Shown in pieces: positions 7,061-36,627 of a stretch of 37,912 nt of DNA. The position numbers and the translations under genes were made by a program. Numbering within the stretch: position 1 is the first letter of the stretch; every line of letters begins with the position of its first letter. Location: NCBI GenBank assembly GCA_001897615.1, contig MKTG01000071.1:144886-182797 (forward strand), written 5' to 3'. The notes beneath the pieces are model-generated. The model saw only the letters and a program-made list of their open reading frames with translations, searched no databases and had not been told where the DNA came from. This DNA comes from Burkholderiales bacterium 68-10 (lineage in GTDB: Bacteria; Pseudomonadota; Gammaproteobacteria; Burkholderiales; Burkholderiaceae_C).

Positions 7061-7094
7061 GCAAGCGCCGGCAGCTCTTGTTTTAATAGTAAAC
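7061..7094 (+). repeat. Dispersed 33-bp element, intergenic copy A
   Basis: The copy reads GCAAGCGCCGGCAGCTCTTG followed by TTTTAATAGTAAAC. It lies in the 97-base gap between the convergent dacB and dehydrogenase genes. It shares CAAGCGC, AGCT and TTTTAATAG with the other copies listed here. No other feature was seen in this gap. Confidence 0.8.
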
Positions 7095-7104
7095 GGGCGG
7101 CGAC

Positions 7105-8193
7105 TCACGCGTCGCTGCCGGCCTCGATACGGGCCGCGATGGCCTCGCCCATCTGCGTGGTGGTGGCCGTGCCGCCCAGGTCGGGCGTGCGCGGGCCGTG
7201 GGCCAGCACCTGCTCGATGGCGCGCAGGATGGCGTCGTGCGCGGCGCTCTCGCCCAGGAATTGCAGCATCAGCGCGGCCGACCAGATCATGGCCACGGGG
7301 TTGGCGATGTTGCGGCCAAAGATGTCGGGCGCCGAGCCGTGCACCGGCTCGAACAGGCTGGGAAAGCGCCGCTCGGGGTTCAGGTTGGCCGAGGGCGCCA
7401 GGCCGATGGTGCCGGTGCAGGCCGGGCCCAGGTCGCTCAGGATGTCGCCAAACAGGTTGCTGGCCACCACCACGTCAAAGCGCTGCGGCTGCAGCACGAA
7501 GCGCGCGGTGAGGATGTCGATGTGGTGCTTTTCCACCGCCACCTGCGGATAGCGGGCGGCCATGGCGTCGGCGCGGCCGTCCCACCAGGGCATGGAAATC
7601 GCGATGCCGTTGCTCTTGGTGGCCACGTCCAGCTTGCGGCGCGCTCGCGCGGCGGCCTGCTCGAAGGCGAACTTCAGCACGCGGTCGGCGCCGAAGGCGC
7701 TCATCACGGTTTCCTGCACCACGATCTCGCGCTCGGTGCCGGCGTACATCACGCCGCCGAGGTTGGTGTATTCGCCCTCGGTGTTCTCGCGCACCACCAG
7801 AAAGTCGATGTCGCCGGGCTTCTTGCCCGCCAGCGGGCAGGGCACGCCCTCGAACAGGCGCACCGGGCGCAGGTTGATGTACTGGTCGAACTCGCGGCGG
7901 AACTTCAGCAGGCTGCCCCACAGCGAGACGTGGTCGGGCACGCTGGCGGGCCAGCCGACGGCGCCGAACAGCAGCGCGTCCTGGCCCTGCAGCCGCGCCT
8001 TCCAGTCGTCCGGCATCATCTGGCCGGTCTTGGCGTGGTAGTCGCAGCTGGCCCATTCGATGGGGGTTTGCCGCAGCGTGAAGCCAAAGCGCCGCTGGGC
8101 GGCGGCCAGCGCGCGCAGTGCCTCGGGCATCACTTCCTGGCCGATGCCGTCGCCCGGGATGACGGCGACGCGGTGGGTGCGGGTGGGGTTCAT
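7105..8193 (-). CDS. Tartrate dehydrogenase / D-malate dehydrogenase-type decarboxylating enzyme
   Basis: The 362-residue product belongs to the isocitrate/isopropylmalate dehydrogenase superfamily: VAVIPGDGIGQEV at the N-terminus, RENTEGEYTNLGG near the middle, and SLFEPVHGSAPDIFGRNIAN at the NAD-binding end. YHAKTGQMMP and SVPDHVSLWGSLLKFRREFD are typical of the TtuC/DmlA branch, which oxidises and decarboxylates tartrate, D-malate and related 2-hydroxy acids in the cytoplasm, rather than of LeuB. The ATG at 8193 follows AAGGAG with good spacing. It is convergent with dacB. A terminator (8233-8255) separates it from the GDSL gene upstream, so it has its own promoter within about 40 bases. 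Exact substrate preference cannot be decided from sequence. Confidence 0.88.
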   Translation of the reverse strand: MNPTRTHRVAVIPGDGIGQEVMPEALRALAAAQRRFGFTLRQTPIEWASCDYHAKTGQMMPDDWKARLQGQDALLFGAVGWPASVPDHVSLWGSLLKFRREFDQYINLRPVRLFEGVPCPLAGKKPGDIDFLVVRENTEGEYTNLGGVMYAGTEREIVVQETVMSAFGADRVLKFAFEQAAARARRKLDVATKSNGIAISMPWWDGRADAMAARYPQVAVEKHHIDILTARFVLQPQRFDVVVASNLFGDILSDLGPACTGTIGLAPSANLNPERRFPSLFEPVHGSAPDIFGRNIANPVAMIWSAALMLQFLGESAAHDAILRAIEQVLAHGPRTPDLGGTATTTQMGEAIAARIEAGSDA

Positions 8194-8232
8194 GCGCTTC
8201 TCCTTGAACCCGCGAGCATAGCGCCGGCCACG

Positions 8233-8255
8233 AAAAAGCCGGCGCGCGGCCGGCT
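8233..8255 (-). terminator. Rho-independent terminator after the GDSL lipoprotein gene
   Basis: Read on the minus strand, AGCCGGC (8255-8249), a 5-base loop and GCCGGCT (8243-8237) form a perfect 7-bp GC-rich stem. It runs straight into a short T run (8237-8233). It lies 25 bases after the stop of the minus-strand GDSL gene and ahead of the dehydrogenase start, in the right orientation to end that transcript. It is the only hairpin-plus-T-run I am confident of in this window. Confidence 0.78.
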
Positions 8256-8279
8256 GTCCGGGGTGCGCGCGGCGAGCGC

Positions 8280-9188
8280 TTACCAGCGCTCCTTGAAGCG
8301 GCGGTAGGCGCTTTCGGCGTAGTCGTTGGAGGAGAACTTGCGCTGCGCACCGGGCGAGAAGTGCAGGCCGTCGGCGAACAGCCAGCGGTTGTAGTCGGCC
8401 GAGGCCACGGTGGCGGCGGTGCAGGTGCTGGCGTCGGGCGTGGTGCAGACGGCGTCCTTGCCGTTGACGAGCTCGAAGTTCTGCGGCTTGCCGTACATCA
8501 GGCTGAAGAAGAAGGCGGCGTCGAAGTACAGCACGTTCTGGCCCAGATCGACGATGCTGGACAGCAGCGCGTCGTTGAACGCCACCGACAGCGCGTTGAT
8601 CTCGTCACGCTGGTTGCGCGCGCGCGCCCAGGGCGTGTCGCCCAGCAGCTGCACGCCGGTCACCACCACGTGCTGGCCGCCGGCGCCCACCACGCGCCGC
8701 ACCTGGGCGGCCAGGGCCTTGCCGGCGTCCTTGACGGTCTGGGTGGTGGCGTCGGAGATGCCGGTGGCCTCGACCGCGGCGACGATGTCGTGCATGCCGC
8801 CGTTGATCAGCACCACGTCGTCCTTGCCGGCCAGCGTGGTGCTGGCCAGCAGGGTGTCGATCTGGGCCGTGACGCTGGGCGCGCCGCCCACCGGGTCGGG
8901 CGTGCCGACGCGGGCGTGGCCCTGGGCATATCCGGTGCCGCCGCCGCTGGCGGGGCCGACCGTGAGCTTGTAGTGCGCGGCCAGCTCCTGCACCCAGTTG
9001 TTGGAGCCGTCGTTGACGGTGTAGCGCTTGCCGGCCTGGCCGACGTCCATGAAGCTGTCGCCGACGGTGAGAAAGCGCTTGGGCTCCAGGTCGGACACCA
9101 CCGAGCCGGAGCCGCAGGCCGCCAGCAGGGCCACCGCGCCGGCGCAGCCCAGGGCAAGGGCGGCGCGGCGAAACCAGGATGCGTTCAT
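8280..9188 (-). CDS. GDSL/SGNH-hydrolase lipoprotein
   Basis: The product (302 aa) starts with a lipoprotein signal, ALLAAC with Cys25 as the lipidated residue, so it is probably membrane-anchored facing the periplasm. The catalytic Ser45 sits in FLTVGDSFMDVG (block I), and the Asp-His pair in FADGLHFSPGAQ (Asp273, His276; block V). The block III Asn (usually GxND) is replaced by GGMHD, an oddity given that Asn normally helps form the oxyanion hole. The C-terminus NDYAESAYRRFKERW is conserved-looking. Such enzymes are esterases or acylhydrolases; no substrate can be named. The gene lies alone between tsaC and a terminator and reads the same way as tsaC, 51 bases downstream of it. The start at 9188 has AGGA (AAAGAGTCCTTCATCATG context) only weakly placed. 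Confidence 0.85.
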   Translation of the reverse strand: MNASWFRRAALALGCAGAVALLAACGSGSVVSDLEPKRFLTVGDSFMDVGQAGKRYTVNDGSNNWVQELAAHYKLTVGPASGGGTGYAQGHARVGTPDPVGGAPSVTAQIDTLLASTTLAGKDDVVLINGGMHDIVAAVEATGISDATTQTVKDAGKALAAQVRRVVGAGGQHVVVTGVQLLGDTPWARARNQRDEINALSVAFNDALLSSIVDLGQNVLYFDAAFFFSLMYGKPQNFELVNGKDAVCTTPDASTCTAATVASADYNRWLFADGLHFSPGAQRKFSSNDYAESAYRRFKERW

Positions 9189-9239
9189 GATGAAGGACTC
9201 TTTGCTTGGGACAGGGCCACGTAGTTTAACGAGGGCGCG

Positions 9240-10232
9240 TCAGCCCGAGGCGGCGGCGCGCTGCAGGCGGTCACGCACGCCGTCCCAGGCCGGGTCGGCC
9301 GGCGGCGTCTCGACCCAGATCAGCCGCGCGCCGGCGGCGTCGAAGTCGCGCAGCAAGGCGAACAGCTCGCGCGCGGCGGCGTCGGCCGACTCGGGCATGC
9401 GGCGCAGCAGCAACTGGCGCGAATCGGAATGCAGCGGCGCGCGCGTCCACACCGCGATGTGGCGCGCGTCGGCGCCCAGCACCCGCAGCGCGGCGCGCAG
9501 CTCGCGCGCGTCCATCAGGCGCAGCCTGGCGCGCGGGGCGTAGTGAGCCAAAAGCGTGCCTGGCGCTTGCGGGTCGGGCGTCAGCAGCTCCTCTTTGGAT
9601 AGCAATGGCCGACCCGCCACGCGCTCGATGTCGGCGCGCCCCAGCTGCCCCGGACGCAGCAGCACGGGGGCGCCGCGCGTGCAGTCGACGATGGTCGACT
9701 CGATGCCCACGGTGCAGGGCCCGCCGTCCAGCACCAGCAGATCGTCGCCAAACTCCGCCGCCACATGCGCTGCGGTGGTGGGGCTGACCCGCCCGAAGCG
9801 GTTGGCGCTGGGCGCCGCCAGCCCGGCGATGCCGCGCGCCGCGCAGGCCGCCAGCAGGGCGCGTGCCACCGGATGCGCCGGGCAGCGCAGGCCGATGGTG
9901 GCGTGGCCGCCGGCGGCGGCGCTGGCCACGCCTTCGCGGCGCGGCAGGATCAGGGTCAGCGGGCCGGGCCAGAAGGCGTCGATCAGGCGCTGCGCGAAAT
10001 CGGGCACGGCGGCGGCAAAGTCCGCCACGGCGGCCGGCCCGGCCACGTGCACGATCAGCGGGTGGTCGGCCGGGCGGCCCTTGGCGGCAAAGATGGCGCG
10101 CACCGCCGCGTCGTTGCCGGCGTCGGCCGCCAGGCCGTAGACCGTCTCGGTGGGCAGGCCGAGCAGTTGGCCGGCCGTGAGCCGCTCGACCGCGCGCTCG
10201 ATGGCCTGCGCCTGCGTGCCGTCGAGCACCAT
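9240..10232 (-). CDS. tsaC: L-threonylcarbamoyladenylate synthase (Sua5-type TsaC)
   Basis: The enzyme makes threonylcarbamoyl-AMP from threonine, bicarbonate and ATP, the first step of t6A37 tRNA modification. The YrdC/TsaC domain fills the first about 200 residues: GLPTETVYGLAADA, AAKGRPADHPLIVHV, FWPGPLTLIL, GLRCPAHPVA, GLAAPSANRFGRVSPTTA and GIESTIVDC. A further about 120 residues including GTLLAHYAPRARL form the Sua5 domain, so this is the long form (330 aa) rather than the short E. coli type. The ATG at 10232 overlaps the purK stop by one base (TGATG), implying translational coupling in a purE-purK-tsaC unit. A much longer in-frame extension upstream is only the opposite reading of purK. 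A possible copy of the dispersed repeat lies inside (9577-9606) at the junction of the two domains. Confidence 0.93.
   Translation of the reverse strand: MVLDGTQAQAIERAVERLTAGQLLGLPTETVYGLAADAGNDAAVRAIFAAKGRPADHPLIVHVAGPAAVADFAAAVPDFAQRLIDAFWPGPLTLILPRREGVASAAAGGHATIGLRCPAHPVARALLAACAARGIAGLAAPSANRFGRVSPTTAAHVAAEFGDDLLVLDGGPCTVGIESTIVDCTRGAPVLLRPGQLGRADIERVAGRPLLSKEELLTPDPQAPGTLLAHYAPRARLRLMDARELRAALRVLGADARHIAVWTRAPLHSDSRQLLLRRMPESADAAARELFALLRDFDAAGARLIWVETPPADPAWDGVRDRLQRAAASG
9577..9606 (+). repeat. Possible degenerate copy of the dispersed element, inside tsaC (copy I)
   Basis: The plus strand reads GCGTCAGCAGCTCC then TCTTTGGATAGCAAT. Compared in reverse complement with the purK copy, TTGCTAT, the 8-base spacer, AGCTGCT, CGC, and then GCAAGCGC fall at the same spacing. 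It lies opposite to the coding direction, unlike the other in-gene copies, and encodes roughly residues 209-219 (SKEELLTPD region), between the two domains. The match is weaker, so chance similarity is possible. Confidence 0.45.
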
Positions 10233-11431
10233 CAGAAGGCCTCGATGCCCAGCAGGGCGGCGGCCCGCAGCGCCACGGCGCGCGCGGCGTCGGCGCCGGG
10301 CGCCGTCAGCGTCAGGTGCCCCATCTTGCGGCCGCGCCGCGCCTCGGTCTTGCCGTACAGGTGCAGGTGCGCGCCGGGCAGGGCCAGCACATCGGCCCAG
10401 GGCGGGGTGCGCGGCGCGCCCTGGCCGTCGAACCACAGATCGCCCAGCAGGTTGAGCATGATGGCGGCGCTGTGCTGGCGCGGCGCGACCAGCGGCAGGC
10501 CGGCCAGCGCGCGCACCTGCAGGTCGAACTGCGACACGTCGCAGGCGTCGATGCTGTAGTGGCCGCTGTTGTGCGGGCGCGGCGCCATCTCGTTGACCAC
10601 CAGCGTGCCGTCCTGCAGCACAAAGTATTCGACGCACAGCACGCCCACGTAACCCAACTGGTTTGCTATATCAATCGTAGCTGCTTGCGCTTGACTGGCA
10701 AGCGCTGGCGGCAAATTTTGTTCATACACCTCGGTGACGGCGAGGATGCCGTCGCGGTGCAGGTTGCGCTGCACCGGCAGGGTGACGGCCTGGCCGTCGC
10801 GCCCGCGCGCCACGATCACCGAGCATTCCAGCGCCAGCGGCAGCAGCTGCTCCAGCACGCAGGGCACGCGGCCCATGGCTTGCCAGGCGGTGGCCAATTC
10901 AGCCGGCGTGGCCACGCGGGCCTGGCCCTTGCCGTCGTAGCCCAGGCGGGCGGTTTTCAAAATGCCGGGCAGCAGCGCCGCGGGCACGGCGGCCAGCTCG
11001 GCCTCTGACGTGATCACCGCATACGGCGCCGGCGCCACGCCGCTGGCGGGGGCGCAGCGCGCGAAGTGCGCCTTCTCGGCGCCGCGGTCCTGCGCAATGG
11101 CCACCGCGTCGGCGGCGGGTGACACCGGCCGCCGCGCGGACAGGCTCGCCAGGCTGTCGGCGGGCACGTTCTCGAATTCGGTGGTGACGGCGTGGGCGCA
11201 GGCCGCCAGCCGGTCGAGCGCGTCGCCATCGCGATAGTCGGCCCGGATGAAGTGCTGGCTCACGCGCCCGGCCGGGCTGGCGGCATCGGGGTCGAGCACC
11301 GCCGTCTCGTAGCCCAACGCCTGCGCCGCGTGCACGAACATGCGCCCCAGCTGGCCACCGCCCAGCACGCCCAGCGTGGCGGGGCGACCATCGATCAGGG
11401 TGCCGGGCAGCAAGGGCAATGGAGTGGACAT
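10232..11431 (-). CDS. purK: N5-carboxyaminoimidazole ribonucleotide synthase
   Basis: PurK uses ATP to carboxylate aminoimidazole ribonucleotide, supplying PurE in purine synthesis. The ATP-grasp protein (399 aa from ATG 11431) shows LGVLGGGQLGRMF near the N-terminus, TTEFENVPAD, KTARLGYDGKGQ, LEQLLPLALECSVIVAR, and the metal/ATP-site NEMAPRPHNSGHYSID, all typical. ATG 11455 would add eight residues (MRSSPDPS); neither start has a clear ribosome site, and 11431 (MSTPLPL) is the better family fit. It is followed by tsaC with a one-base overlap and preceded by purE across 162 bases holding a large palindrome. Residues about 239-257 are encoded by a copy of the dispersed repeat and read LASQAQAATIDIANQ; that stretch is AT-richer than the rest. 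Confidence 0.95.
   Translation of the reverse strand: MSTPLPLLPGTLIDGRPATLGVLGGGQLGRMFVHAAQALGYETAVLDPDAASPAGRVSQHFIRADYRDGDALDRLAACAHAVTTEFENVPADSLASLSARRPVSPAADAVAIAQDRGAEKAHFARCAPASGVAPAPYAVITSEAELAAVPAALLPGILKTARLGYDGKGQARVATPAELATAWQAMGRVPCVLEQLLPLALECSVIVARGRDGQAVTLPVQRNLHRDGILAVTEVYEQNLPPALASQAQAATIDIANQLGYVGVLCVEYFVLQDGTLVVNEMAPRPHNSGHYSIDACDVSQFDLQVRALAGLPLVAPRQHSAAIMLNLLGDLWFDGQGAPRTPPWADVLALPGAHLHLYGKTEARRGRKMGHLTLTAPGADAARAVALRAAALLGIEAF
10661..10714 (-). repeat. Dispersed element inside purK (copy B), with hairpin half
   Basis: On the minus (coding) strand the core 10693-10661 reads CAAGCGCAAGCAGCTACG then ATTGATATAGCAAAC. It is preceded by an inverted GCGCTTG partner, so GCGCTTG/CAAGCGC (10687-10693 and 10699-10705 on the plus strand) can fold as a perfect 7-bp stem with a 5-base loop. 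Here the unit is a small REP-like hairpin plus tail. It encodes QAQAATIDIAN in frame. Confidence 0.85.
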
Positions 11432-11469
11432 GGAGGGGTCAGGGGATGATCGCAAGCAGTCTCAAGCCC

Positions 11470-11574
11470 GAACGCAGAGGACGCAGAGGTGAAGCAGAAA
11501 TCGCAGAAGATGCAGGAAAACCATTTTTGGGTTTCCTCTGCGATTTCTGCGAAATCTCTGCGCCCTCTGCGTTC
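11470..11574. repeat. 105-bp imperfect palindrome between purE and purK
   Basis: The left arm starts GAACGCAGAGGACGCAGAGG (11470) and the right arm ends CTCTGCGCCCTCTGCGTTC (11574). The reverse complement of the right arm begins GAACGCAGAGGGCGCAGAGA and continues GCAGAAATCGCAGA in register with the left arm. Each arm is built of CGCAGAG-like units with an AT-rich centre near 11522-11529. It occupies most of the 162-base purE-purK gap; nothing else was seen there. The transcript would fold into a long hairpin that could reduce or stabilise purK-tsaC expression relative to purE. No T run follows, so a classic terminator is not supported. Confidence 0.8.
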
Positions 11575-11593
11575 GGCTGTTCAATGGCCGTTT

Positions 11594-12094
11594 TCATGAT
11601 CCGCCCACCGGCGGCAGCGCCATGGCGCGGGCGGCGGCGGTTTGTTCGGCGCGGAAGGCGTGCAGCCGCTGGCGCAGCGCGGTGTCGTCCGCGGCCAGCA
11701 AGGCCACCGCGAACAGCGCCGCGTTGGCCGCGCCCGCCGCGCCGATGGCAAAGGTGGCCACCGGCACGCCCTTGGGCATCTGCACGATGGAGTGCAGCGA
11801 ATCCACGCCCTGCAGGTGGCGGCTGGCCACCGGCACGCCCAGCACCGGCACCACGGTCTTGGCCGCCAGCATGCCGGGCAGGTGCGCGGCGCCGCCGGCA
11901 CCGGCGATGATGGCGCGCAGGCCGCGCGCCTGCGCGCCTTCGGCGTAGGCGAACATGTCGTCCGGCATGCGGTGGGCCGACACCACGCGTGCCTCGTGCG
12001 GCACGCCGAACTGCGCAAGGATTTGCACGGCGTGCTGCAGGGTGTCCCAGTCGCTGCTGGAGCCCATCACCACACCCACGAGAGGAGTTGTCAT
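11594..12094 (-). CDS. purE: 5-(carboxyamino)imidazole ribonucleotide mutase
   Basis: Class I PurE (166 aa) converts N5-CAIR, the PurK product, to CAIR in purine synthesis; it forms a cytoplasmic octamer. Diagnostic segments are [17 protein letters not shown] at residues 6-22, [17 protein letters not shown] with the catalytic His41, and [19 protein letters not shown] with VLGVP and [19 protein letters not shown] 12094 gives the expected N-terminus. It heads the purE-purK-tsaC unit. The 54 bases to the divergent thioredoxin gene must contain both promoters. No purine operator could be recognised. Confidence 0.96.
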
Positions 12095-12101
12095 CACGCT
12101 A

Positions 12102-12130
12102 TTGGCACAATGGCTGGTAATCCCCGATTT
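12102..12130 (+). promoter_or_regulatory. Possible promoter for the CnoX-like gene
   Basis: TTGGCA (12102-12107) resembles a -35 box. CGATTT or GATTTT 17-18 bases on is a poor -10. It lies in the only 54 bases between the divergent purE and thioredoxin genes, so a promoter must be nearby, but this exact match is weak. Confidence 0.25.
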
Positions 12131-12148
12131 TGCCCGCAGATACCCCAC

Positions 12149-13105: not shown

Positions 13106-13170
13106 GGACGCATGACGGCGCTGGCGCGCCATGACCTCGCTGCGCTCGATGACGGCGGCTGCGCCGGCCT

Positions 13171-13230
13171 ATGACAAATGACGAATGACCCGTGAGCGAA
13201 CGACGGTCAAGTCATTTGTCATTTGTCATT
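13171..13230. repeat. Inverted repeat running into the rsmA stop end
   Basis: ATGACAAATGACGAATGAC at 13171-13189 faces GTCATTTGTCATTTGTCATT at 13211-13230, an almost perfect inverted pair with a 21-base loop. The right arm is also the last codons of rsmA (residues MTNDK and the stop). The arms are made of TGACAAA/TGACGAA units. It lies between convergent cnoX and rsmA, so it could act as a bidirectional transcript end, although no T run follows. Confidence 0.7.
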
Positions 13231-14021
13231 GAAGCCGCGGCAGCGGCGAAGTCATCGAGCGCAGCGAGGTCATGGGCCAGGGCGATGTATTCGGCCACCG
13301 GCACCTCCTCGGCGCGCCGCTGCACGTCAAAGTCGCCAGCAAAGCCCCGTGCGTCGAGCCATTTGCCCAGGCTGTGGCGCAGCAGCTTGCGGCGCTGGCT
13401 GAAGGCCACGCGCACCAGTTCTGAAAACGCATCCACATCCAGCGGCGCAAAGTCGCCGCGCGGCAGCATGCGCACCACGGCGCTGTCGACGCGCGGCGGC
13501 GGGTCGAACGCGCTGGGCGGCACGAACAGCACGTCTTCCATCGCGTAGCGCCATTGCAGCATCACCGACAGACGGCCATAGTCGGCCGTGGCGGGCGGCG
13601 CCACCATGCGGTCGATGACTTCTTTTTGCAGCATGAAGTGCTGGTCTTCGACGACGCCGGCAAAAGGCAGCAGGTGGAACAGGATCGGGCTGGAGATGTT
13701 GTAGGGCAGGTTGCCGCAAACTCTTATTTTTGTAGCTGCTCGCGCTTGCGCCACCTGCGAAAAATCCACTTTCAGCACATCGGATTCGATCACGTCGAGC
13801 TGCGGGTGGGCACGCAGCCGCGCCGCCAGGTCGCGGTCCAGCTCGATCACCGTCAGGCGCCCCAGCCGCTCGACCATCGGCTGCGTCAGCGCCGCCAGCC
13901 CCGGTCCGATCTCCAGCATCGCCTGGCCCGGGCGCGGATCAATGGCGCGCACGATGGCGTCGATGATGGCCGGATCGGCCAGAAAGTGCTGACCGAAGCG
14001 TTTACGGGGGATGTGCTTCAT
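13212..14021 (-). CDS. rsmA: 16S rRNA (adenine1518-N6/adenine1519-N6)-dimethyltransferase
   Basis: RsmA (KsgA, 269 aa) dimethylates two adjacent adenines at the 3' end of 16S rRNA during 30S assembly. Visible motifs are [17 protein letters not shown], the SAM-binding [15 protein letters not shown] (residues 35-49), [20 protein letters not shown], and the catalytic [15 protein letters not shown] (from residue 103), all at normal spacing. ATG 14021 is right for the family but has no ribosome site: the sequence upstream is a 7-bp tandem array ending 3 bases before the start codon. Residues 92-102 ([11 protein letters not shown]), immediately before NLPY, come from a copy of the dispersed repeat. 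The C-terminal ASMTNDK is encoded by one arm of an inverted repeat. It follows surA in the usual order, but no pdxA lies between. Confidence 0.96.
13716..13748 (-). repeat. Dispersed element inside rsmA (copy C)
   Basis: The coding strand reads CAAGCGCGAGCAGCTACA then AAAATAAGAGTTTGC, 33 bases, the same length as copy B and with the same leading core. It encodes [11 protein letters not shown] just ahead of the conserved GNLPYN motif. Its AT-rich tail contrasts with the surrounding GC-rich gene. Confidence 0.8.
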
Positions 14022-14023
14022 GC

Positions 14024-14169
14024 CGTTGAGCGTTGAGCGTTGAGCGTTGAGCGTTGAGCGTTGAGCGTTGAGCGTTGAGCGTTGAGCGTTGAGCGTTGAG
14101 CGTTGAGCGTTGAGCGTTGAGCTTGAGCGTTGAGCGTTGAGCGTTGAGCGTTGAGCGTTGAGCGTTGAC
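14024..14169. repeat. 7-bp tandem array (CGTTGAG)n next to the rsmA start
   Basis: CGTTGAG repeats 14 times from 14024 to 14121, then one 6-base unit (CTTGAG, 14122-14127), then 5 more copies to 14162 and a final CGTTGAC. The first unit begins 3 bases from the rsmA ATG (14021), on the upstream side for that minus-strand gene. A scatter of opposite-orientation relatives (GAACGCTCCACGCCCAACGC) lies at 14206-14228. Because 7 is not a multiple of 3 and the minus strand of the unit lacks stop codons, all minus frames stay open across it. It fills most of the 243-base surA-rsmA gap; nothing else was seen there. Confidence 0.95.
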
Positions 14170-14264
14170 AGATGGGCGCGGCCGCGAAAGTTCCGGTATT
14201 CACGCTGAACGCTCCACGCCCAACGCTCAACCTCCTCTTCACACGTCGAACGCCGGATCGGGCC

Positions 14265-18204: not shown

Positions 18205-18221
18205 TCTAGAATCGATTATCC

Positions 18222-19334: not shown

Positions 19335-19420
19335 TCCAGCCGCACCCGCCGGGCGGCGCCCCGTCAGTGGTCCGGCATACTCGGGGTTCAGAGTCGAATC
19401 GAGCTCCATCGCGCCATGGA

Positions 19421-19454
19421 TCAGCGCCAGAAGCTATTGTTTAGATAGCATACA
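19421..19454 (+). repeat. Dispersed 33-bp element, intergenic copy D
   Basis: The copy reads TCAGCGCCAGAAGCTATTG then TTTAGATAGCATACA. It lies between the convergent ends of amgK and the LuxR gene, in a 182-base gap. The rest of that gap holds a GC-rich dyad, GCGCGGG (19483-19489) facing CCCGCGC (19494-19500), which could end the LuxR transcript but has no adjacent T run. Confidence 0.75.
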
Positions 19455-25927: not shown

Positions 25928-25937
25928 GCGGGATCGA

Positions 25938-26519: not shown

Positions 26520-26524
26520 GGCTG

Positions 26525-26556
26525 GTTTCTCACTTTTTGATAGCTGCTTGCGCTTG
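26525..26556 (-). repeat. Dispersed element at the 3' end of aroQ (copy E)
   Basis: On the coding strand the copy reads CAAGCGCAAGCAGCTATC then AAAAAGTGAGAAAC. It supplies the last eight residues of AroQ (QAQAAIKK), the TGA stop, and bases running toward the next start. It shares core and orientation with copies B, C and H. Confidence 0.85.
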
Positions 26557-26979
26557 CCCCGCCAGCGCGCGCAGCCCCAGCAGATAAGAATCGACGCCAA
26601 AGCCGCAGATCTGCCCGCGCGCGATGTCGGCGATGAAGGAGCGGTGGCGGAACGGCTCGCGCGCGTGGATGTTGCTCATGTGCACCTCGACGATCGGGCA
26701 CTTCAGGATGGCCAGCGCGTCGCGGATGGCGATGCTGGTGTGCGTCCAGGCGCCGGCGTTGATCAGCACGCCGTCCACCGCGTCGCGGTGCGCCTGGTGG
26801 ATGCGCTCGCACAGGGCGCCTTCGTGGTTGCTCTGGAAGCACTCGATCGTGACGCCCAGCTCGCCGGCCAGCTGCCGCAGCGCGGCGTCGATGTCCGCCA
26901 GCGTGGCCGTGCCGTAGTGGCCCGGGTCGCGCTGGCCGAACATGTTCAGGTTGATGCCGTGCAGGACGAGGAGGTTCAT
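26530..26979 (-). CDS. aroQ: 3-dehydroquinate dehydratase, type II
   Basis: AroQ (149 aa) dehydrates 3-dehydroquinate in the shikimate pathway and works as a dodecamer. [19 protein letters not shown], with the catalytic Tyr at GHYG, is the N-terminal signature; [33 protein letters not shown] and [18 protein letters not shown] carry the substrate-binding and His residues. ATG 26979 is chosen because the family starts there; the ORF extends upstream without support. The C-terminal QAQAAIKK is encoded by the dispersed repeat. The aroE stop lies 14 bases upstream on the same strand, so the two shikimate genes are joined. Confidence 0.95.
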
Positions 26980-26993
26980 GGCGCCATTGTGAA

Positions 26994-27833: not shown

Positions 27834-27899
27834 GGCGCGATGGTAGCGGGCCGGCTGCGGTAGGCTATGCGCATCGCGATCACTCCAAGGACAAGCCCC

Positions 27900-28334
27900 A
27901 TGCGCATCTGGCAGCAACCCCTATCGGTGGACATCCTGAACGCCATCAACGAAGACACGGTGGTGCGCCGCCTGGGCATCGAGTTCCTGGAGGTCGGCGA
28001 CGACTTCCTGCGCGCCCGCGTGCCGGTCAACGCCCACACGCGCCAGCCCTACGGCCTGCTGCACGGCGGCGTCAGCGTGGTGCTGGCCGAGACGCTGGGC
28101 TCCTGCGGCGCGGTCTATGCCTGCCCCGAGGGCTGGCGCGCCGTGGGCCTGGACATCAATGCCAACCACATTCGCGGCGCCACCAGCGGCTGGGTGACGG
28201 GCACCGCGCGGCCGGTGCACATCGGCCGCAGCACCCAGGTGTGGCAGATCGACATGCACAACGACGAGGGGGAGATCACCTGCGTCTCGCGTCTGACGAT
28301 GGCAGTGCTGGCGCCGCGCCCGGAATACAAATGA
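27900..28334 (+). CDS. Hotdog-fold acyl-CoA thioesterase (YdiI/PaaI type)
   Basis: The 144-residue product is a single hotdog thioesterase of the YdiI/EntH group. YGLLHGGVSVVLAETLGSCG has the HGG motif (His55) and the catalytic Glu64. VGLDINANHIRGATSGWVTG and STQVWQIDMHNDEGEITCVSRLTMAVL complete the fold. It hydrolyses acyl- or aroyl-CoA thioesters; the natural substrate is not clear. CCAAGGACAAGCCCC gives a good ribosome site before ATG 27900. A near-copy of the start (ATGCGCATC) at 27867 in the same frame is an alternative, but sits before the ribosome site. It is divergent from aroE and followed by copy F of the repeat. Confidence 0.9.
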   Translation: MRIWQQPLSVDILNAINEDTVVRRLGIEFLEVGDDFLRARVPVNAHTRQPYGLLHGGVSVVLAETLGSCGAVYACPEGWRAVGLDINANHIRGATSGWVTGTARPVHIGRSTQVWQIDMHNDEGEITCVSRLTMAVLAPRPEYK

Positions 28335-28357
28335 TTCGGGCCGCGGCGCCTGCTGGG

Positions 28358-28391
28358 CAATCGCTAATAGCTATGATTTAGATAGCGTTTG
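28358..28391 (+). repeat. Dispersed 33-bp element, intergenic copy F
   Basis: The copy reads CAATCGCTAATAGCTATG then ATTTAGATAGCGTTTG, one change from the CAAGCGC core. It sits between the thioesterase stop (28334) and the oxidase start (28455). The remainder of the 120-base gap shows only the AGGAG ribosome site of the oxidase. Confidence 0.75.
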
Positions 28392-28454
28392 GCCACTGCG
28401 CGACATATCGGGCAGCGGTTTACACTGAACGCTCAGCCACAGGAGAGCCCGCCC

Positions 28455-29882: not shown

Positions 29883-29893
29883 GCGGGCGCTGT

Positions 29894-30523: not shown

Positions 30524-30613
30524 GGGCGGCAACGGGAAGGCATGAGGGCGGATTGGACCACAGTGTCACGCCCCATCCAACGCAGACCATTTGCCCGACC
30601 AGCGCGCTTCTGA

Positions 30614-30646
30614 CAAGCGCAAATAGCTACTGTTTTAATAGTGATT
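30614..30646 (+). repeat. Dispersed 33-bp element, intergenic copy G
   Basis: The copy reads CAAGCGCAAATAGCTACTG then TTTTAATAGTGATT. It lies in the 211-base gap between mscS and the CsgG-like gene. The same gap holds a perfect GCCGGGC/GCCCGGC dyad (30675-30681 and 30690-30696) about 40 bases after the CsgG-like stop. It could end that transcript, but it lacks a T run. Confidence 0.8.
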
Positions 30647-30734
30647 GCATTCGGCCGCGAAGGTCCCTGGAAGGGCCGGGCGTGGTTCAGCCCGGCGGCC
30701 CCCGGCTTGGCAGGCCGCCCGGATCGGGCACCGC

Positions 30735-31655: not shown

Positions 31656-31727
31656 GTGCTCTCTCCTGTGAATGGATGGCGTCCTGGTGCCCCTGCACGC
31701 GCGCAGGGCGTCCGGTCGCTCGGCGCC

Positions 31728-31756
31728 ATCATAAATCGGAGACGGTCGCATGAAAC
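31728..31756 (-). promoter_or_regulatory. Possible promoter of the CsgG-like gene
   Basis: On the minus strand TATGAT (31733-31728) makes a good -10 and GTTTCA (31756-31751), 17 bases earlier, a weak -35. It lies 73 bases upstream of the CsgG-like start, in the 186-base gap after the FlgO-like gene. This suggests that the CsgG-like gene can be transcribed separately. A perfect GC dyad, GGCGCGG-g-CCGCGCC at 31813-31827, sits just after the FlgO-like stop. Confidence 0.3.
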
Positions 31757-31841
31757 CGCGGCCTTGCGGAGCGCAGCGGCCAACGGCGCGCCGCAGGAAG
31801 GTGGACGCACACGGCGCGGGCCGCGCCCGGGCCGGCGTGCG

Positions 31842-32414
31842 TCAGCGGAACGACGGTTCCTGCAGCAGGCGCTGCACGTCGCGGTCGTTGGGCAGGGCGT
31901 AGTCATGACCGCGCAGGATGCGGCTGTCTTCGGTGCGCACCAGCTTGATGCTGACGTAGGTGTAGTCGGAGGCGGGCGAATAGGTGCCCACCAGCACCAC
32001 GGCGGCGTTCTGGCTGCGCGCGATGTCGCGCAGCTCGCGCGACAGCAGCAGCTCGCCCGTGCCTTCGCGCACGAACAATTCGCCGCGCAGCTTGACTTCC
32101 TTCACGTTGAAGCCTTGTGCCGCCATGTGCGAGGCGTATTGCTCCGACAGGGTGCGGCCCAGCGGCGCCGAGCGCGTGAGGTTGTTGACATTGACCACCG
32201 TGGCCACCAGCACCGGGCCGCCGGCCAGGGTATCGGCCGGCAATCCGTCGACCAGCTTGCCGACGGCGGCACGGCCGCTGTCGAGAAACGCGCTTTGCGC
32301 GGCGGACTCGTAGCTTGGGCCGGCACGGCGGGCCGGCGCCGGCTCGCCGAAGCTCGAGCAGCCGGCCAGCGACGCCAGCACCAGCGACAGGGCAAGGGAC
32401 GCGTACCTCCTCAT
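31842..32414 (-). CDS. FlgO-domain lipoprotein
   Basis: The product (190 aa) is a lipoprotein, SLAGC with Cys19. The mature part includes LVDGLPADTLAGGPVLVATVVNVNNL, LGRTLSEQYASHMAAQGFNVKEVKLRGELFVREGTGELLLSRELRDIA, and AVVLVGTYSPASDYTYVSIKLV, matching the FlgO-domain family first described in Vibrio for outer-membrane flagellar proteins. No other flagellar gene is in the window, so a flagellar role is not supported here. It overlaps the preceding lipoprotein stop by 4 bases (ATGA), so it is translationally coupled to it. Confidence 0.85.
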   Translation of the reverse strand: MRRYASLALSLVLASLAGCSSFGEPAPARRAGPSYESAAQSAFLDSGRAAVGKLVDGLPADTLAGGPVLVATVVNVNNLTRSAPLGRTLSEQYASHMAAQGFNVKEVKLRGELFVREGTGELLLSRELRDIARSQNAAVVLVGTYSPASDYTYVSIKLVRTEDSRILRGHDYALPNDRDVQRLLQEPSFR

Positions 32415-33163
32415 GACACCACCTTCAGGTTGACGGCCTTGTAACCGGGCGCGGAGCGCAGGAACAGCGGTGCGTCGACGTTCTCGAGGTAATACACGTC
32501 GGTCTTGCGGCTGACGAAGCGACCGCGGTTGCTCACCGTGGTGGTCAGGATCAGTTCGGTGTTGGTGGGGCCGCCCGTGTACACGCTGGCGCCGTAGTCG
32601 GCCGCCGCCGCCAGGCCCAGGGTGGCGAACAGCTTGGCGTCGAGGTGCTCCAGCCGCAGGCCGTAGGCGGCCATCAGGCCGGCAGCCAGCACGGTGAACT
32701 GGCCCGGCACGAAGTGCGGGCGCGGGCTGTCGTGGCGCACCACCTGGGTCTGGTAGGTGACCTCCAGCGCGTCCAGGTCGCGGCAGGCGGGCGTGGCGGC
32801 GCAGGCCTGCGTCTGCCATGCCACGGCGGCCGCCTGGTCAGGCTGCATGTAGACCGTCTGGCCGCTTTGCACCAGCTTGGTGATCAGGAACTCGCGAAAG
32901 CCGCGATCGAACTGGGACGGGTTGGCCGGCAGACCCACCACCATCGGGGTGTTGGCCGGCACCTGAGCGCTCTTCAGCGAGGCCAGGGTCTGCGTGACCA
33001 CGTCGTTGGACAGCAGTTCCCAGTGGCCCGCCGAGCGCACCTTGGGCTGGACGGTGAGGTCGAAGTTCTCGGCCAGGGGAATGGGCGCCTTGGTGGCGCA
33101 GCCCGGCAGGGCGGCCACGCCGGCCGCCAGCACGAGCGCGCTGATGCGCAGTGAACGCTTCAT
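32411..33163 (-). CDS. Lipoprotein of unknown function, first of the three-gene set
   Basis: I do not recognise a named family. The 250-residue product starts with a lipoprotein signal (MKRSLRISALVLAAGVAALP, then GCATKAP, Cys22). The mature protein has FDLTVQPKVRSAGHWELLSNDVVTQTLAS, TPMVVGLPANPSQFDRGFREFLITKLVQSG, two Cys (QACAATPAC), a hydrophobic segment FTVLAAGLMAAYGLRLEH, and LILTTTVSNRGRFVSRKTDVYYLENVD, ending APGYKAVNLKVVS. The last third looks like a beta-rich domain. GAGGAGAAACC is a strong ribosome site before ATG 33163. It shares a 4-base overlap with the FlgO-like gene and lies upstream of a CsgG-like gene; a common outer-membrane assembly is plausible. Confidence 0.85.
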   Translation of the reverse strand: MKRSLRISALVLAAGVAALPGCATKAPIPLAENFDLTVQPKVRSAGHWELLSNDVVTQTLASLKSAQVPANTPMVVGLPANPSQFDRGFREFLITKLVQSGQTVYMQPDQAAAVAWQTQACAATPACRDLDALEVTYQTQVVRHDSPRPHFVPGQFTVLAAGLMAAYGLRLEHLDAKLFATLGLAAAADYGASVYTGGPTNTELILTTTVSNRGRFVSRKTDVYYLENVDAPLFLRSAPGYKAVNLKVVS

Positions 33164-33310
33164 GGTTTCTCCTCGAACAGGTGCAATGCCATGCCGCAGG
33201 AAGCGGCCAGCCGATTGAGTCATTTGAATACATTTTGCGCACTCTGTTGAAGCGACACAACAAGAAGCCGCGCCAAGTGCATCAGGAAGTCAGGATTTGT
33301 TGTTTTTGTT

Positions 33311-33323
33311 CACACGTCGTGTG
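33311..33323. promoter_or_regulatory. Perfect 13-bp palindrome upstream of the lipoprotein set
   Basis: CACACG-T-CGTGTG at 33311-33323 is a perfect dyad, following a T-rich stretch (TTGTTTTTGTT), about 150 bases upstream of ATG 33163. The 283-base gap 33164-33446 is AT-richer than the rest of the window, contains no gene I can support, and must carry the promoter of the minus-strand lipoprotein set. It could be an operator. Confidence 0.35.
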
Positions 33324-33446
33324 GTGCATTGTCTGCGCCTGCTGGGTGCGCTGACGGCCCGCGAGACCATCATCGACTATGACTTTCGCAGCGGATGACG
33401 CAGCTCTGTCGTCAGCAATGTCTCGACAAGACGCCGGATCCGCCCT

Positions 33447-34214
33447 TCAACCGCCGCCCAGGCGCTCCAGCACGTCGATGCGGGCCGGCGGCAGGTTGGC
33501 CAGTACGCGCTCACGTCCACCGCTCACCAGTCCGGCCGTCTGCCAGGGCGAGCTTCCGCGCAAGGCGTAGGTGAACTGCAACAGGCGACCACCCGGTGCC
33601 AGCACCTGCGCGCCTGCGTGCAGGATGCGCTGACGCACCTCCGGCGGAATCGACAGCAGAGGCAGGCCGGAGACGATGCAGCACACCGGCAGCGGCGCGC
33701 CATCGTCGGCGCGCGGCCAGTCGGGTGCGGCGCGCAGCAGCGCCAGCTCGGCCGCGTCGCCCTGCACCACCCGCACCTGGGGAAAGCGCTGCGCCAGGTG
33801 CCGCGCCAGCGCCGGCGACTGCTCGATCACCACCAGCCGCTGCGGCGCCACGCCGCGCGCCAGCAGGGCCGCGGTGATGACGCCCGTGCCACCGCCCAGC
33901 TCCACCACCAGGCCCGGCGCCGCCGGATCGACCCAGGCTGCCATGCGCGCGGCCAGCTGAGGCGAGCTGGCGCAGATGGCGCCCACCCGGGCCGGTTGCG
34001 TCACCAGGGCGCGCAGAAACACCGAACGCGGCGATCGGTCGACCACCCGTTCCACCGCGCGCCGCACGCGGCTCACCCCGGCGCGGGCGGCGCGCAGGGC
34101 CAGCAGTGGCGCCGCGCGCCCAACACCGCGGCGGCGCGCCAGCCGGACCATGGCGCGCGCGCCAGGGGTGCTGCTGGTCGGCTGATCCGGTGCACGCATG
34201 TGAAGCCTGCTCAC
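33447..34214 (-). CDS. Class I SAM methyltransferase, phospholipid N-methyltransferase-like
   Basis: The 255-residue product shows FLRALVTQPARVGAICASSPQLAARMA, typical of the PmtA/phosphatidylethanolamine N-methyltransferase group. A SAM-binding loop VVELGGGTGVITAAL (residues 103-117) follows, then VVIEQSPALARHLAQRFPQVRVVQGDAAEL and the SGLPLLSIPPEVRQRIL segment characteristic of those enzymes. The first 60 residues are Arg-rich and low in conserved features. Two starts are possible: GTG 34214, overlapping the upstream gene's stop by 4 bases (GTGA), or ATG 34199. The overlap argues for coupling to the exported Met-rich protein. A substrate of phosphatidylethanolamine is likely from the family, but not certain. 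Confidence 0.8.
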   Translation of the reverse strand: MSRLHMRAPDQPTSSTPGARAMVRLARRRGVGRAAPLLALRAARAGVSRVRRAVERVVDRSPRSVFLRALVTQPARVGAICASSPQLAARMAAWVDPAAPGLVVELGGGTGVITAALLARGVAPQRLVVIEQSPALARHLAQRFPQVRVVQGDAAELALLRAAPDWPRADDGAPLPVCCIVSGLPLLSIPPEVRQRILHAGAQVLAPGGRLLQFTYALRGSSPWQTAGLVSGGRERVLANLPPARIDVLERLGGG

Positions 34215-35497
34215 CGGCCGAAGATGCCGCGCAGCAGATTGCCCGGGTTGAGCAGGATCTGGGCCGGCGAGCTGTCCTCCGGCCTGGGCTCGCCGCCCTG
34301 CCCCGGCGCGCCGGCAGCGGCACCGCCCGATCGACCGCCGCGCGCGGCGGCGGCGCCTTCCTCGCCCAGCATGGCCATGGTGTGGCTCTTGACGCGCACA
34401 CGCACCGCCCAGTCAGGCTCCCAGCGCGCCTTGGGGTCGGCCGGACGCGGCGGATGCGCGAAATGGCTTTCACCGCCATAGGCCATCATGCGCAGCATGG
34501 GCGTGGCGTCACGCCCGCCGGCCGCGAAGATGCCGCGCGGGATGGCGCACTGCGTGGTCTGGGCGTCCAGCAACACCCGCTCGCGCACCCAGCGTTCCTG
34601 GGTGGCGTTGGGCAGGTAGTCGAACAGGCCCATGCCGGTGTCCGGCGTTTCGGCGCTGGACCACAGAATCATGTCGTCGCCCGCCTGCGACAGGGCGTGC
34701 AGGTAGTAGGCGCGCGCGTGCGGCACCGGCTGCCACTGTGTGACGATGCTGTCCTGCACGCGGCCGCTGCTGCTCAGCTCGATCGGCGGCATCAGGTCCT
34801 GCGCGCTGCCGAGGCTGAACTTCATCGACGCCGGCACCCCCTCGCCCAGCACCTGGTGCTCGCCCACCAGCGAACTGCCGCGCGGCACGGCCGCCTGGCT
34901 GCGCTCGTTGGGGTACAGCGCGTGGCCGGGGCCGACGCGCGCGCCGCGCTCGGGCACCACACGGCCGGCAAAGGCCTGCGCGAACTGCGCCGCGCCGGCC
35001 TGGGCCAGGTCGATCACGCGCGGCTGGCCGGCGCGCAGTTCGGGCCCGCAGCCCCAGTAGACCAGCAGCCGCCCGCGCGGCTTGTCACGGCTGTACTCTT
35101 CGGGCAGCTCGCCCGGCTCGGACGGCGTGCGCGGCTCGGCGCGCGGCGGCAGCAACGGCAGGCTCTCGCCCATGCGCATGCCGGGCGGGATGGCCTGGCG
35201 CGCCTCCACGCCGGGCCGCAGGCTGTTGTGGAACGCGATGTCAACGACGCGTGGCGGCATCACCGCCATGCCGCGGGCCATGCCGTAGTGCATCTGCCCG
35301 CCCATGCCCGGCGGCGCGCCACCGCCCATGGGCAGGTCCATCTCCGGCATGCCGGCCATGCCGCCTGTGGACAGGTCGATCCAGAGCTGCGCCTTGGGCG
35401 GCCGGGCGCCCTGCGCCCAGGCGCCCGGCGCGCACCACAGCCACAAGGCCGCCGCGACCAGCGTCACGGGCCGGATGATCGATTGGACGCTGTTCAT
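34211..35497 (-). CDS. Exported protein with Met-rich segment, unknown function
   Basis: I do not recognise this family. From ATG 35497 (428 aa), which follows AGGAGACC, the product has a signal peptide (hydrophobic 12-24, cleavage near GAWA-QGA). Residues 47-80 hold nine Met among Gly and Pro (GGMAGMPEMDLPMGGG and so on). The body includes RLLVYWGCGPELRAGQPRVIDLA, WQPVPHARAYYLHALSQAGDD, LWSSAETPDTGMGLFDYLP and CAIPRGIFAAGG. A Gly/Ala/Arg-rich disordered stretch precedes the conserved-looking C-terminal tail (ILLNPGNLLRGIFGR). Met-rich periplasmic segments can bind Cu(I), but that is only a suggestion. It is co-directional with parB upstream, across 152 bases, and overlaps the methyltransferase start. 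Confidence 0.8.
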   Translation of the reverse strand: MNSVQSIIRPVTLVAAALWLWCAPGAWAQGARPPKAQLWIDLSTGGMAGMPEMDLPMGGGAPPGMGGQMHYGMARGMAVMPPRVVDIAFHNSLRPGVEARQAIPPGMRMGESLPLLPPRAEPRTPSEPGELPEEYSRDKPRGRLLVYWGCGPELRAGQPRVIDLAQAGAAQFAQAFAGRVVPERGARVGPGHALYPNERSQAAVPRGSSLVGEHQVLGEGVPASMKFSLGSAQDLMPPIELSSSGRVQDSIVTQWQPVPHARAYYLHALSQAGDDMILWSSAETPDTGMGLFDYLPNATQERWVRERVLLDAQTTQCAIPRGIFAAGGRDATPMLRMMAYGGESHFAHPPRPADPKARWEPDWAVRVRVKSHTMAMLGEEGAAAARGGRSGGAAAGAPGQGGEPRPEDSSPAQILLNPGNLLRGIFGR

Positions 35498-35602
35498 GAA
35501 TGAGGGTCTCCTGCCATGTCGCGCCGGGCGGGAGCCCGCCCGGCGCGGATATTCAGTGTATGCCGATGGCGGTGACTTTTCACCTGGGGCCAACGCGCGG
35601 AC

Positions 35603-35647
35603 GGCGTGAACGAGCCCGCCGTGGCCCGAGGCGGGCGCGTTCACGCC
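35603..35647. repeat. 18-bp-arm hairpin just downstream of parB
   Basis: GGCGTGAACGAGCCCGCC (35603-35620) faces GGCGGGCGCGTTCACGCC (35630-35647) with one mismatch and a 9-base loop, two bases after the parB stop codon (35650). Such a stem strongly suggests a transcript end, but neither side has a T run of more than three, so factor-assisted termination or mRNA stabilisation is as likely. Confidence 0.7.
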
Positions 35648-35649
35648 TT

Positions 35650-36627
35650 TCAACCGTTCCCGCGCAAGCGCTCGATCAGGCCGTTGAGTTCGTCCAGCGA
35701 GCCGAACTGGATCGCCAGCTCGCCCGCCTGCACCGCCGCGCCACCGCGGCGCGCGGCTTTCCGGACCCGCACCTCGACCTGCGCGGTCAGCAGGTCGGAC
35801 AGCTCCTCCTCCACGCGCCGCACGTCGCCCGACTTGTCGGGCGCGCCGGCGGGCTTGCGCGGGGCCGTGAGGTTGAACTCGGCCGACAGCTTGCGCGCCA
35901 GTGCCTCGGTTTCGCGCACGCTCAGCTTGCGCGCGGCCACCTGGTTGGCCGCGGTGATCTGGGCCGCGCCGTCCAGCGCCAGCAGGGCGCGCGCGTGGCC
36001 CATGTCCAGATCGCCCGCCATCAGCATGGTCTGCACCGGCTCGGCCAGATTCAGCAGGCGCAGCAGGTTGCTGGCGGCGCTGCGGCTCTTGCCCACGGAC
36101 TGCGCCGCCTGCTCGTGCGTGAGGCCGAATTCGTCGACCAGGCGCTTGATGCCCTGCGCCTCTTCCAGCGGATTGAGGTCCTCGCGCTGGATGTTCTCGA
36201 TCAACGCCATGGCGGCGGCGGCCTCGTCGGGCACGTCGCGCAGCAGCACCGGCACCTCGGCCAGGCCCGCCAGGCGAGCGGCGCGAAAACGCCGCTCGCC
36301 GGCGATGATTTCGTAGTTTGCTTCTAAAAAGATAGCTGCTGGCGCTTGTCCATCCTGCGCCAGAGCCGGTTTTTGCTTGAGCCGCCGAACCAGGATCGGC
36401 TGCATGATGCCCTGGCTCTTGATGCTCTCGGCCAGCTCGTACAGCGCGCCTTCGTCCATGCGGGTGCGTGGCTGGTACTGGCCGGGCGCCAGCGCGTCCA
36501 GCGACAGCATCATCGGCGTGCCGGCGGGGGTGGCGGCGGGCGCGCCCTCGCCGGCGTCGCCAGCCAGGCTGGGGCCGAGCAGCGCGTCCAGGCCGCGCCC
36601 GAGGCCCTTGGGTTTCTTGGTGACCAT
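35650..36627 (-). CDS. parB: Chromosome-partitioning protein ParB
   Basis: ParB (325 aa) binds parS, clamps on DNA using CTP, and works with ParA to segregate the origin. MVTKKPKGLGRGLDALLG is the typical chromosomal ParB start. The CTP-binding/arginine-patch GERRFRA lies at 110-116, ALIENIQREDLNPLEEAQG follows, then the HTH (LTHEQAAQSVGKSRSAASNLLRLLNL), and the C-terminal dimer domain with LDELNGLIERLRG. ATG 36627 is preferred over the in-frame TTG 36633. Between RRLKQ and NYEIIAGERR are about 18 extra residues (near 84-103), of which 94-104 (QAPAAIFLEAN) come from copy H of the dispersed repeat. ParA is not adjacent; aspA lies upstream instead. Confidence 0.96.
   Translation of the reverse strand: MVTKKPKGLGRGLDALLGPSLAGDAGEGAPAATPAGTPMMLSLDALAPGQYQPRTRMDEGALYELAESIKSQGIMQPILVRRLKQKPALAQDGQAPAAIFLEANYEIIAGERRFRAARLAGLAEVPVLLRDVPDEAAAAMALIENIQREDLNPLEEAQGIKRLVDEFGLTHEQAAQSVGKSRSAASNLLRLLNLAEPVQTMLMAGDLDMGHARALLALDGAAQITAANQVAARKLSVRETEALARKLSAEFNLTAPRKPAGAPDKSGDVRRVEEELSDLLTAQVEVRVRKAARRGGAAVQAGELAIQFGSLDELNGLIERLRGNG
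36316..36348 (-). repeat. Dispersed element inside parB (copy H)
   Basis: The coding strand reads CAAGCGCCAGCAGCTATC then TTTTTAGAAGCAAAC, 33 bases. It encodes QAPAAIFLEAN in the same frame as the copies in purK, rsmA and aroQ and sits just before the conserved GERRFRA motif. Confidence 0.85.

Follow-up and report, generated by a model that had tools for sequence, protein, structure and literature searches.

What kind of sequence recurs nine times within a single 37,912-base stretch of a bacterial genome, and in part inside conserved genes? The question is raised by a contig region of Burkholderiales bacterium 68-10 (G000:C71:144886-182797; 71.5% G+C), which is the whole stretch analyzed here and is called the window; the source genome comprises 3.64 Mb in 116 contigs. 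The initial annotation had described a dispersed 33-bp unit in the window, with eight listed copies and a doubtful ninth at 9577, and all nine are present. Our analysis leads us to lean, if only moderately, towards the view that these copies belong to a chromosomal self-marking sequence which would be read as an uptake signal during natural transformation; the element is filed as working like an uptake signal and not as a proven member of that class. The reading is built on the abundance, the anatomy, the dialects, the positional conservation in congeners, the change that appears mostly substitutional, the absence from the sampled plasmids and the lack of hairpin covariation, all of which are observed, while the uptake step, its receptor and the evolutionary drive are the parts that we infer.

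The distribution of the element was profiled in a genome sample of 594,912 bases, consisting of the window and 28 further stretches of the source genome. A profile of the right arm of the element gave 164 matches at 13 bits or more; as controls, the reversed sequence had 3 and a single simulation by a first-order Markov model had 0. These matches collapse to 159 distinct places, from which about 1000 copies genome-wide are estimated by extrapolation. In the whole genome AAGCGCNARNAGCTA with at most one mismatch was found 381 times against 22 times for the reversed pattern, so the core is not, as the initial annotation had allowed for, merely as common as chance would make it. Gene positions were obtained by a crude custom gene caller (524 genes, 84% coding), and by these 50 of the 159 copies lie wholly inside genes, 29 at gene edges and 80 between genes; the earlier description is borne out in that the repeat is dispersed, partly palindromic and present in coding sequence at an unusual density. 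The in-gene copies are balanced by orientation (26 the same as the gene, 24 opposite) and biased by frame (19/7/0 copies in phases 1/0/2 on the same strand; 16/6/2 in phases 0/2/1 on the opposite strand), and 37 of the 50 have a left arm of at least 10 bits. Over the sample the copies are split 70 to 89 between the strands. Uniform placement would give 37.5 gaps shorter than 1 kb between copies (95% range 29-46), and only 22 were observed. Five 5-kb windows below 62% G+C hold 2 elements together, and elsewhere the density is 2.5-2.8 per 10 kb. Strong over-representation with many coding copies, which is expected of an uptake signal, is therefore found here. For the uptake signal sequence (USS) and the DNA uptake sequence (DUS), the part of PMC1626085 available to us describes a high copy number, a non-coding preference yet many coding copies, no difference in strand use between chromosome halves, fewer close neighbours than uniform placement, a strong consensus, and a core plus AT tracts, and the present element shows these properties too.

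The placement between genes is uneven: the 63 divergent gaps have 6 elements, the 46 convergent gaps 22 and the 212 tandem gaps 77. Such a bias towards gene ends and towards convergent regions, together with the inverted GC halves of the element, would suit a transcription terminator or a 3'-end RNA structure, and uptake signals can double as terminators according to the accessible portion of PMC13020248. We consider a terminator very improbable as the explanation, since the in-gene copies make up 50 of the 159 and stand in both orientations, no compensatory changes were seen, and an Rfam search at E<=1 gave no match over the window copies. The sole window match of that search, MIR2084 at 35591-35659, was taken as chance.

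The anatomy was resolved by comparing 30 genomic copies, each of which is part of one longer element in a common register. The element profile was made from 72 seed sites and spans about -41 to +31 around AAGCGC. The left arm has TT, AAAT and GGC..T.TAGCGCTTG; the centre is the palindrome GCGCTTGCC-N-GGCAAGCGC; the right arm reads AAGCGC.AGCAGCTAT.AATTtaGTAGTaAt. The element is thus a GC core with AT-rich tracts, gapless and about 72 bp long, and the 33-bp unit first proposed was too small, being one arm of this composite. The non-coding or edge copies (107) carry 56 bits of information, the in-gene copies (48) 47 bits. Exact AGCAGCTAT occurs 46 times against 0 for its reverse, and with one mismatch 96 times against 120; perfect cores in excess without an excess of single mismatches are an uptake-signal pattern in the part of PMC1626085 at hand. 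Covariation between the arms was searched for among 155 copies, in non-coding and in-gene sets, and none of the 52 pair tests exceeded z 2.3. Positions 18 and 20 pair below expectation (z -4.1, the lowest of the 52), and positions 17-20 read AAAA in 23 copies, TTTT in 14, other A/T combinations in 48 and contain G or C in 74. Since hairpin covariation is lacking and positions 18/20 are under-paired, as for runs of A or runs of T, the pattern points to recognition of the element as duplex DNA rather than as a hairpin.

The nine copies in the window are as follows, with the right-arm and left-arm profile scores in bits; the right-arm profile was derived from the genome sample, which itself includes the window.

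Element 1, 7022..7094, plus strand: intergenic, between an open reading frame (ORF) ending at 7007 and a tartrate-dehydrogenase-like gene (7105-8193); right 45.0, left 11.2.
Element 2, 9535..9607, plus strand: the formerly doubtful copy, inside a TsaC-type gene (9240-10232); right 26.7, left 15.8; gap-free alignment in G418 and G396.
Element 3, 10661..10733, minus strand: inside purK (10232-11413), amino acids 241-251; right 41.4, left 27.4; ungapped in the two PurK alignments shown.
Element 4, 13716..13788, minus strand: inside rsmA (13212-14021), amino acids 92-102, in a variable loop before GNLPYN; right 35.2, left 4.7.
Element 5, 19381..19453, plus strand: intergenic; right 42.7, left 19.3.
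Element 6, 26524..26596, minus strand: a half element that overlaps the 3' end of aroQ (26530-26979) ahead of a PduO-type gene; right 36.5, left -0.3; counterparts in G418, G396 and G015, with one gap position in each.
Element 7, 28318..28390, plus strand: intergenic; right 36.5, left 15.0; counterparts in G418 and G015.
Element 8, 30574..30646, plus strand: intergenic; right 46.2, left 3.0.
Element 9, 36316..36388, minus strand: inside parB (35650-36627), amino acids 94-104; right 47.9, left 17.1; within an 18-residue insertion which the solved ParB chains shown lack.

The right-arm scores range from 26.7 to 47.9 bits. A tenth match (19.7 bits, 28397, minus strand) is an opposite-strand overlap with the copy at 28359. 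The first base of AAGCGC, or of its equivalent, lies at 7063, 9576, 19422, 28359 and 30615 on the plus strand and at 10692, 13747, 26555 and 36347 on the minus strand. Four copies are intergenic, four lie inside genes (purK, rsmA, parB and the TsaC-type gene) and one straddles the end of aroQ, so that the gene contexts given earlier were nearly exact and the ninth copy adds the TsaC-type gene. The neighbouring GCGCTTG which had been noticed in purK does exist; it is the left arm of the element, and such a left arm reaches at least 10 bits in six of the nine window copies.

Other repeats were also observed. The 7-base unit TTGAGCG is repeated in tandem at 14026-14178 of the window, just past the rsmA start. 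A 43-base inverted repeat of the ACGCAGAGG type lies at 11468-11576, and 10-mers related to it show some of the highest over-representation in the genome sample. In that sample (window and L073-L100) a repeat resembling clustered regularly interspaced short palindromic repeats (CRISPR) and tandem repeats outrank the 10-mers of the element itself; the over-represented GTATCGCCCG and CGGATTGAAA resemble parts of a CRISPR repeat. A stretch of 24 kb without elements runs from L089:16577 to L091:663; it has several genes of 58-62% G+C, two of them longer than 1000 codons, and is perhaps an acquired island.

How the copies arose was approached through congeners. The copies in the window and in the rest of contig C71 were compared with five congeners, which gave 20 comparisons spanning a copy; 22 more alignments end before the copy. 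All 20 have an element of at least 14 bits within the aligned segment, which is up to about 630 bases long, and in 12 the 32 right-arm bases are free of gaps. A comparison of orthologous sites with and without the element had been proposed at the outset; no element-free counterpart was met among the 20. The intergenic copy at 19422 has an element-like counterpart in all five aligned congeners, with flanks not alignable by eye. Within the genus the motif stands at the same rsmA codons in many species with a graded match, mostly without change of length as judged by eye. The rsmA loop (window 13716-13748 and orthologues) is a hot spot, with an element at that site in 28 of 87 stretches.

Solved protein homologues were compared as well. 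The encoded segment is ungapped in PurK (two alignments), quinone reductase (three), FolP (three), MnmE (three, one of them gapped two residues before the copy) and YggS (three, all variants of one protein). RsmA aligns without a gap to 3uzu_A and with one residue of gap each to 7afo_Y and 3tpz_A. Eight in-gene sites were compared in this way, of which five are gap-free, RsmA is mixed, and GlyS and ParB are gapped; DprA carries two copies. By the congener comparisons and the solved homologues the copies would have originated mostly by substitution, some of them in length-variable loops; the pooled gap counts given below do not, as a whole, support this.

The distribution at chromosome scale was examined in the congener G015, whose complete chromosome has 108 exact copies, with positional tests made on the 100 listed. 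No positional trend was found over the listed range (Kolmogorov-Smirnov p 0.78). The copies are clumped (coefficient of variation 1.37), and one gap of 415 kb is without exact copies. The idea that this gap is a foreign island was dropped because eight 20-kb stretches there (160 kb) hold 43 elements, against 37 in 100 kb outside. Strand use, for which a check relative to replication had been suggested, does not differ between the two chromosome halves, which have 24 plus and 36 minus copies versus 13 plus and 27 minus (p 0.53).

The initial annotation had taken the unit for a sequence like a repetitive extragenic palindrome (REP) or a miniature inverted-repeat transposable element (MITE). In its full form this explanation supposes a family of REPs, of their hairpin-forming doublets (REPINs) or of MITEs, spread by a REP-associated tyrosine transposase (RAYT) or another transposase and now mostly relic. 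The palindromic halves, the few copies in divergent gaps and many in convergent ones, and the insertions at ParB and GlyS speak for it, as does the coincidence of some RsmA-loop copies with insertions. Of 13 RAYT loci, 8 also have an element (16 bits or more) directly after the stop codon of the RAYT gene. The loci (L121-L133) end mostly in GATGTGTCCCC...TCTGACCCC, with the element often between the stop codon and that end, and the terminal motif is scarce, with 6 occurrences in a 2.8-Mb sample; the RAYT association is real but confined to one post-stop position, and the RAYT loci have different ends of their own. Matches to Y1 transposase were found in 24 of 28 element-rich genomes and in 19 of 25 that are poor by the first pattern. 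No Y1 match was found in the source genome (G000), nor in G095, G196, G141 and G020, all of them rich by one of two patterns. The Y1 matches thus bear no clear relation to copy number, and no hairpin kept by compensatory change was seen, whereas a REP/RAYT system should have a cognate transposase and such a hairpin. The gap-free copies in congeners and in PurK, quinone reductase, FolP, MnmE and YggS argue further against mobility, and we regard a transposed origin as quite unlikely. Five Comamonadaceae or related genera are without mention in the available part of the survey PMC3733652.

The strict core occurs patchily even inside the genus, and one reason is that the element has dialects. Profiles built from other genomes keep the anchor CAGCTAT.AAAT..ATAGC and vary in the GCGC half, for example CAAGCGC.AGCAGCTAT in the source genome, TATGCGCGAGCAGCTAT in G217 and ACCTGCGC in G146 and G230. 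Reversed controls of the dialect profiles gave 11 against 27 copies in G226 and 0-2 in the nine other profiled genomes. The anchor was then searched at two mismatches or fewer in 299 genomes of the family from 141 sampled genera, and in about 45 of the 141, by our reading of the table, there were at least 30 matches (mostly hundreds) with controls of 10 or fewer; the element is widespread in Comamonadaceae, in whose genomes the initial annotation had placed similar motifs. Some congeners carry few (423, 4 and 520 in g71; 166, 11 and 8 in g128). In a survey of 150 genomes of the order, four of them from the family, numbers like those of Comamonadaceae were not reached elsewhere: matches outside the family were 43 at most, with controls mostly rising too, and the largest excesses were 43 vs 18 (G290), 36 vs 10 (G334), 37 vs 17 (G289) and 27 vs 6 (G322). 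Among named loci of 9.7-20.8 kb each, 72 of 80 were scored (eight short ones being left out), and at 18 bits or more 38 have two or more copies, 11 have one and 23 have none. The element label is clustered on the RsmA tree (16 changes vs 28.7 when shuffled). No copy was found in single short stretches of Paracidovorax citrulli and cattleyae, Curvibacter gracilis and lanceolatus, three Ramlibacter and two Hylemonella, which does not imply absence from these genomes. Dialects among related taxa, which are expected of an uptake signal, are found here.

Mobile DNA was sampled as four 50-kb stretches of four conjugative plasmids of Polaromonas and Rhodoferax from three strains (200 kb). These have no element at 18 bits or more, and 3 at 14 bits or more, below the 12 that reversed controls of the first three gave. 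At the higher threshold 33 elements were found in 276 kb of chromosome from these genera, taken as 16 stretches. Depletion from mobile DNA is thus found for plasmids, with integron cassettes as the exception. A blastn search with one consensus matched 10 of 72,556 plasmid records and 0 of 50,697 phage records, but this says little, as the E-value used would miss most copies on account of their shortness and divergence. The few plasmid matches led to ORFs of the DUF1010 family, and the one examined lies in a class 1 integron. PF06231 (DUF1010) was found at E<=0.01 in 25 of 29 element-rich genomes and in 0 of 26 element-poor ones. In six of the 25 there is just one match, with E 0.005-0.0093 and possibly by chance, and 14 of the 55 genomes exceed the family cut-off. 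Strong matches occur in arrays, such as the four copies spaced 320, 262 and 262 bp in the source genome (C39, 1338-2379), with attC-like sites between the copies by eye and by a crude pattern. Chromosomal cassette arrays that repeatedly have a DUF1010 ORF around the element are those of G000:C39 and L274-L278, and integrases were confirmed in L274 and L277; an integron integrase (TIGR02249) adjoins the arrays of G120 (7.2e-140) and G072 (2.6e-113). The G120 stretch has 16 copies in 17 kb, all in the same orientation. DUF1010 would seem to arise when the element and its cassette flanks are read as a protein.

A chromosome-wide protein-binding site, serving nucleoid organization, segregation or intracellular self-versus-foreign marking and kept by selection at each site, would share much of this evidence: the duplex-type signal without hairpin covariation, the positions conserved in congeners, the lack of a large-scale trend along the listed G015 range and the absence from the sampled plasmids. 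Against such a site stand the 47-56 bits and the strong consensus, which exceed usual intracellular sites (a point made for uptake signals in the portion of PMC1626085 available), the recurrent near-loss in related species, and arrays of copies in integron cassettes without obvious architectural role; we hold it to be unlikely, though worth keeping in mind.

Under the uptake-signal reading, a surface component of the type IV pilus would bind duplex DNA which carries the composite motif and pull it in. The motif would consist of the GC core GCGC...CAAGCGC-nAG, the anchor AGCTAT-nAATTn-ATAGC and AT-rich tracts about one helical turn apart. DNA with better matches would be taken up and recombined more often, matches would accumulate by point mutation and replacement where genes tolerate them, and receptor and motif may drift jointly into dialects. 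In the accessible passages of PMC4212676, which name no signal, transformation of Verminephrobacter eiseniae and Acidovorax temperans is reported to be sequence- or species-selective, and in V. eiseniae to be pilus-dependent.

Several results weigh against an uptake signal or lend it no support. ComEC and GspH/FimT-type pilins give no phyletic support because they are present in all 80 genomes (80/80 each), rich and poor alike. The minus strand is commoner in G015 overall, 67 vs 41 (p 0.016). When the null model respects intergenic segments, 30.4 short gaps between copies are expected in the genome sample (22-39), and the observed 22 stands only at the edge. The copy in GlyS has a two-residue gap and that in ParB an 18-residue insertion, in both cases in alignments with near-identical chains. 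Among 51 pooled in-gene copies around rsmA, gaps fall inside the copy in 716 of 1885 comparisons and in the flanks in 409; the RsmA loop supplies 28 of these copies (1652 comparisons, 575 gaps), two further copies in one other gene supply 154 comparisons with 125 gaps, and the remaining copies have 16 gaps in 79. The place just behind the RAYT stop codon is to be counted here as well. The element, at 47-56 bits, is longer and has a lower density (about 0.27 per kb) than any uptake signal known to us. Finally, Acidovorax delafieldii, in which 20.8 kb hold 4 copies at 18 bits or more, showed no transformation in the part of PMC4212676 seen.

We tentatively go further and propose, with rather less confidence than for the uptake function itself, a third and independently evolved uptake-signal system across the Comamonadaceae, whose recognition sequence would exceed in length those known to us and whose dialects would differ even between congeners. 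The DUF1010 cassettes could then be signal-bearing passengers which link pilus-selected uptake to cassette capture, and this may explain their move from environmental bacteria to class 1 integrons. If true, a third case in environmental betaproteobacteria with readable dialects would be an independent test of drive versus selection; it would point to a receptor, make foreign DNA easier to spot in such genomes, give the DUF1010 cassettes a function and explain the sequence selectivity reported for Verminephrobacter.

To our knowledge, only two families have well-established uptake signals throughout their genomes. The portion of PMC13020248 (2026) at hand names them in Neisseriaceae and Pasteurellaceae only, and neither this repeat nor an uptake signal of Comamonadaceae is named in the literature titles and abstract openings searched, with subscription journals and bioRxiv mostly outside the search. 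The DUS of Neisseriaceae, whose receptor is ComP, is like the element in its hundreds of chromosomal copies, its dialects and its absence from recently acquired genes (available parts of PMC2397512, PMC3630211 and PMC7371117); the element is unrelated in sequence and length, and no ComP-like receptor was found. The USS of Pasteurellaceae shares a GC core followed by AT-rich tracts, subclade types and many coding copies, and its origin was examined by a gap argument of the same kind (PMC1626085, in the part available), whereas the element has an unrelated sequence, is about 72 bp long and two-armed with 47-56 bits as against a 9-bp core with two AT segments, and is less dense. REPs with RAYTs (GTAG/CGTC-tagged) are likewise short, partly palindromic, present in hundreds of copies and preferring gene ends; the element differs in being not extragenic only, in lacking covariation and in having no link to the presence of RAYTs. 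In the DUF1010 (PF06231) cassettes the ORF runs across the element, and what is annotated there as a protein is, in the present genomes, just one of many hosts of the repeat.

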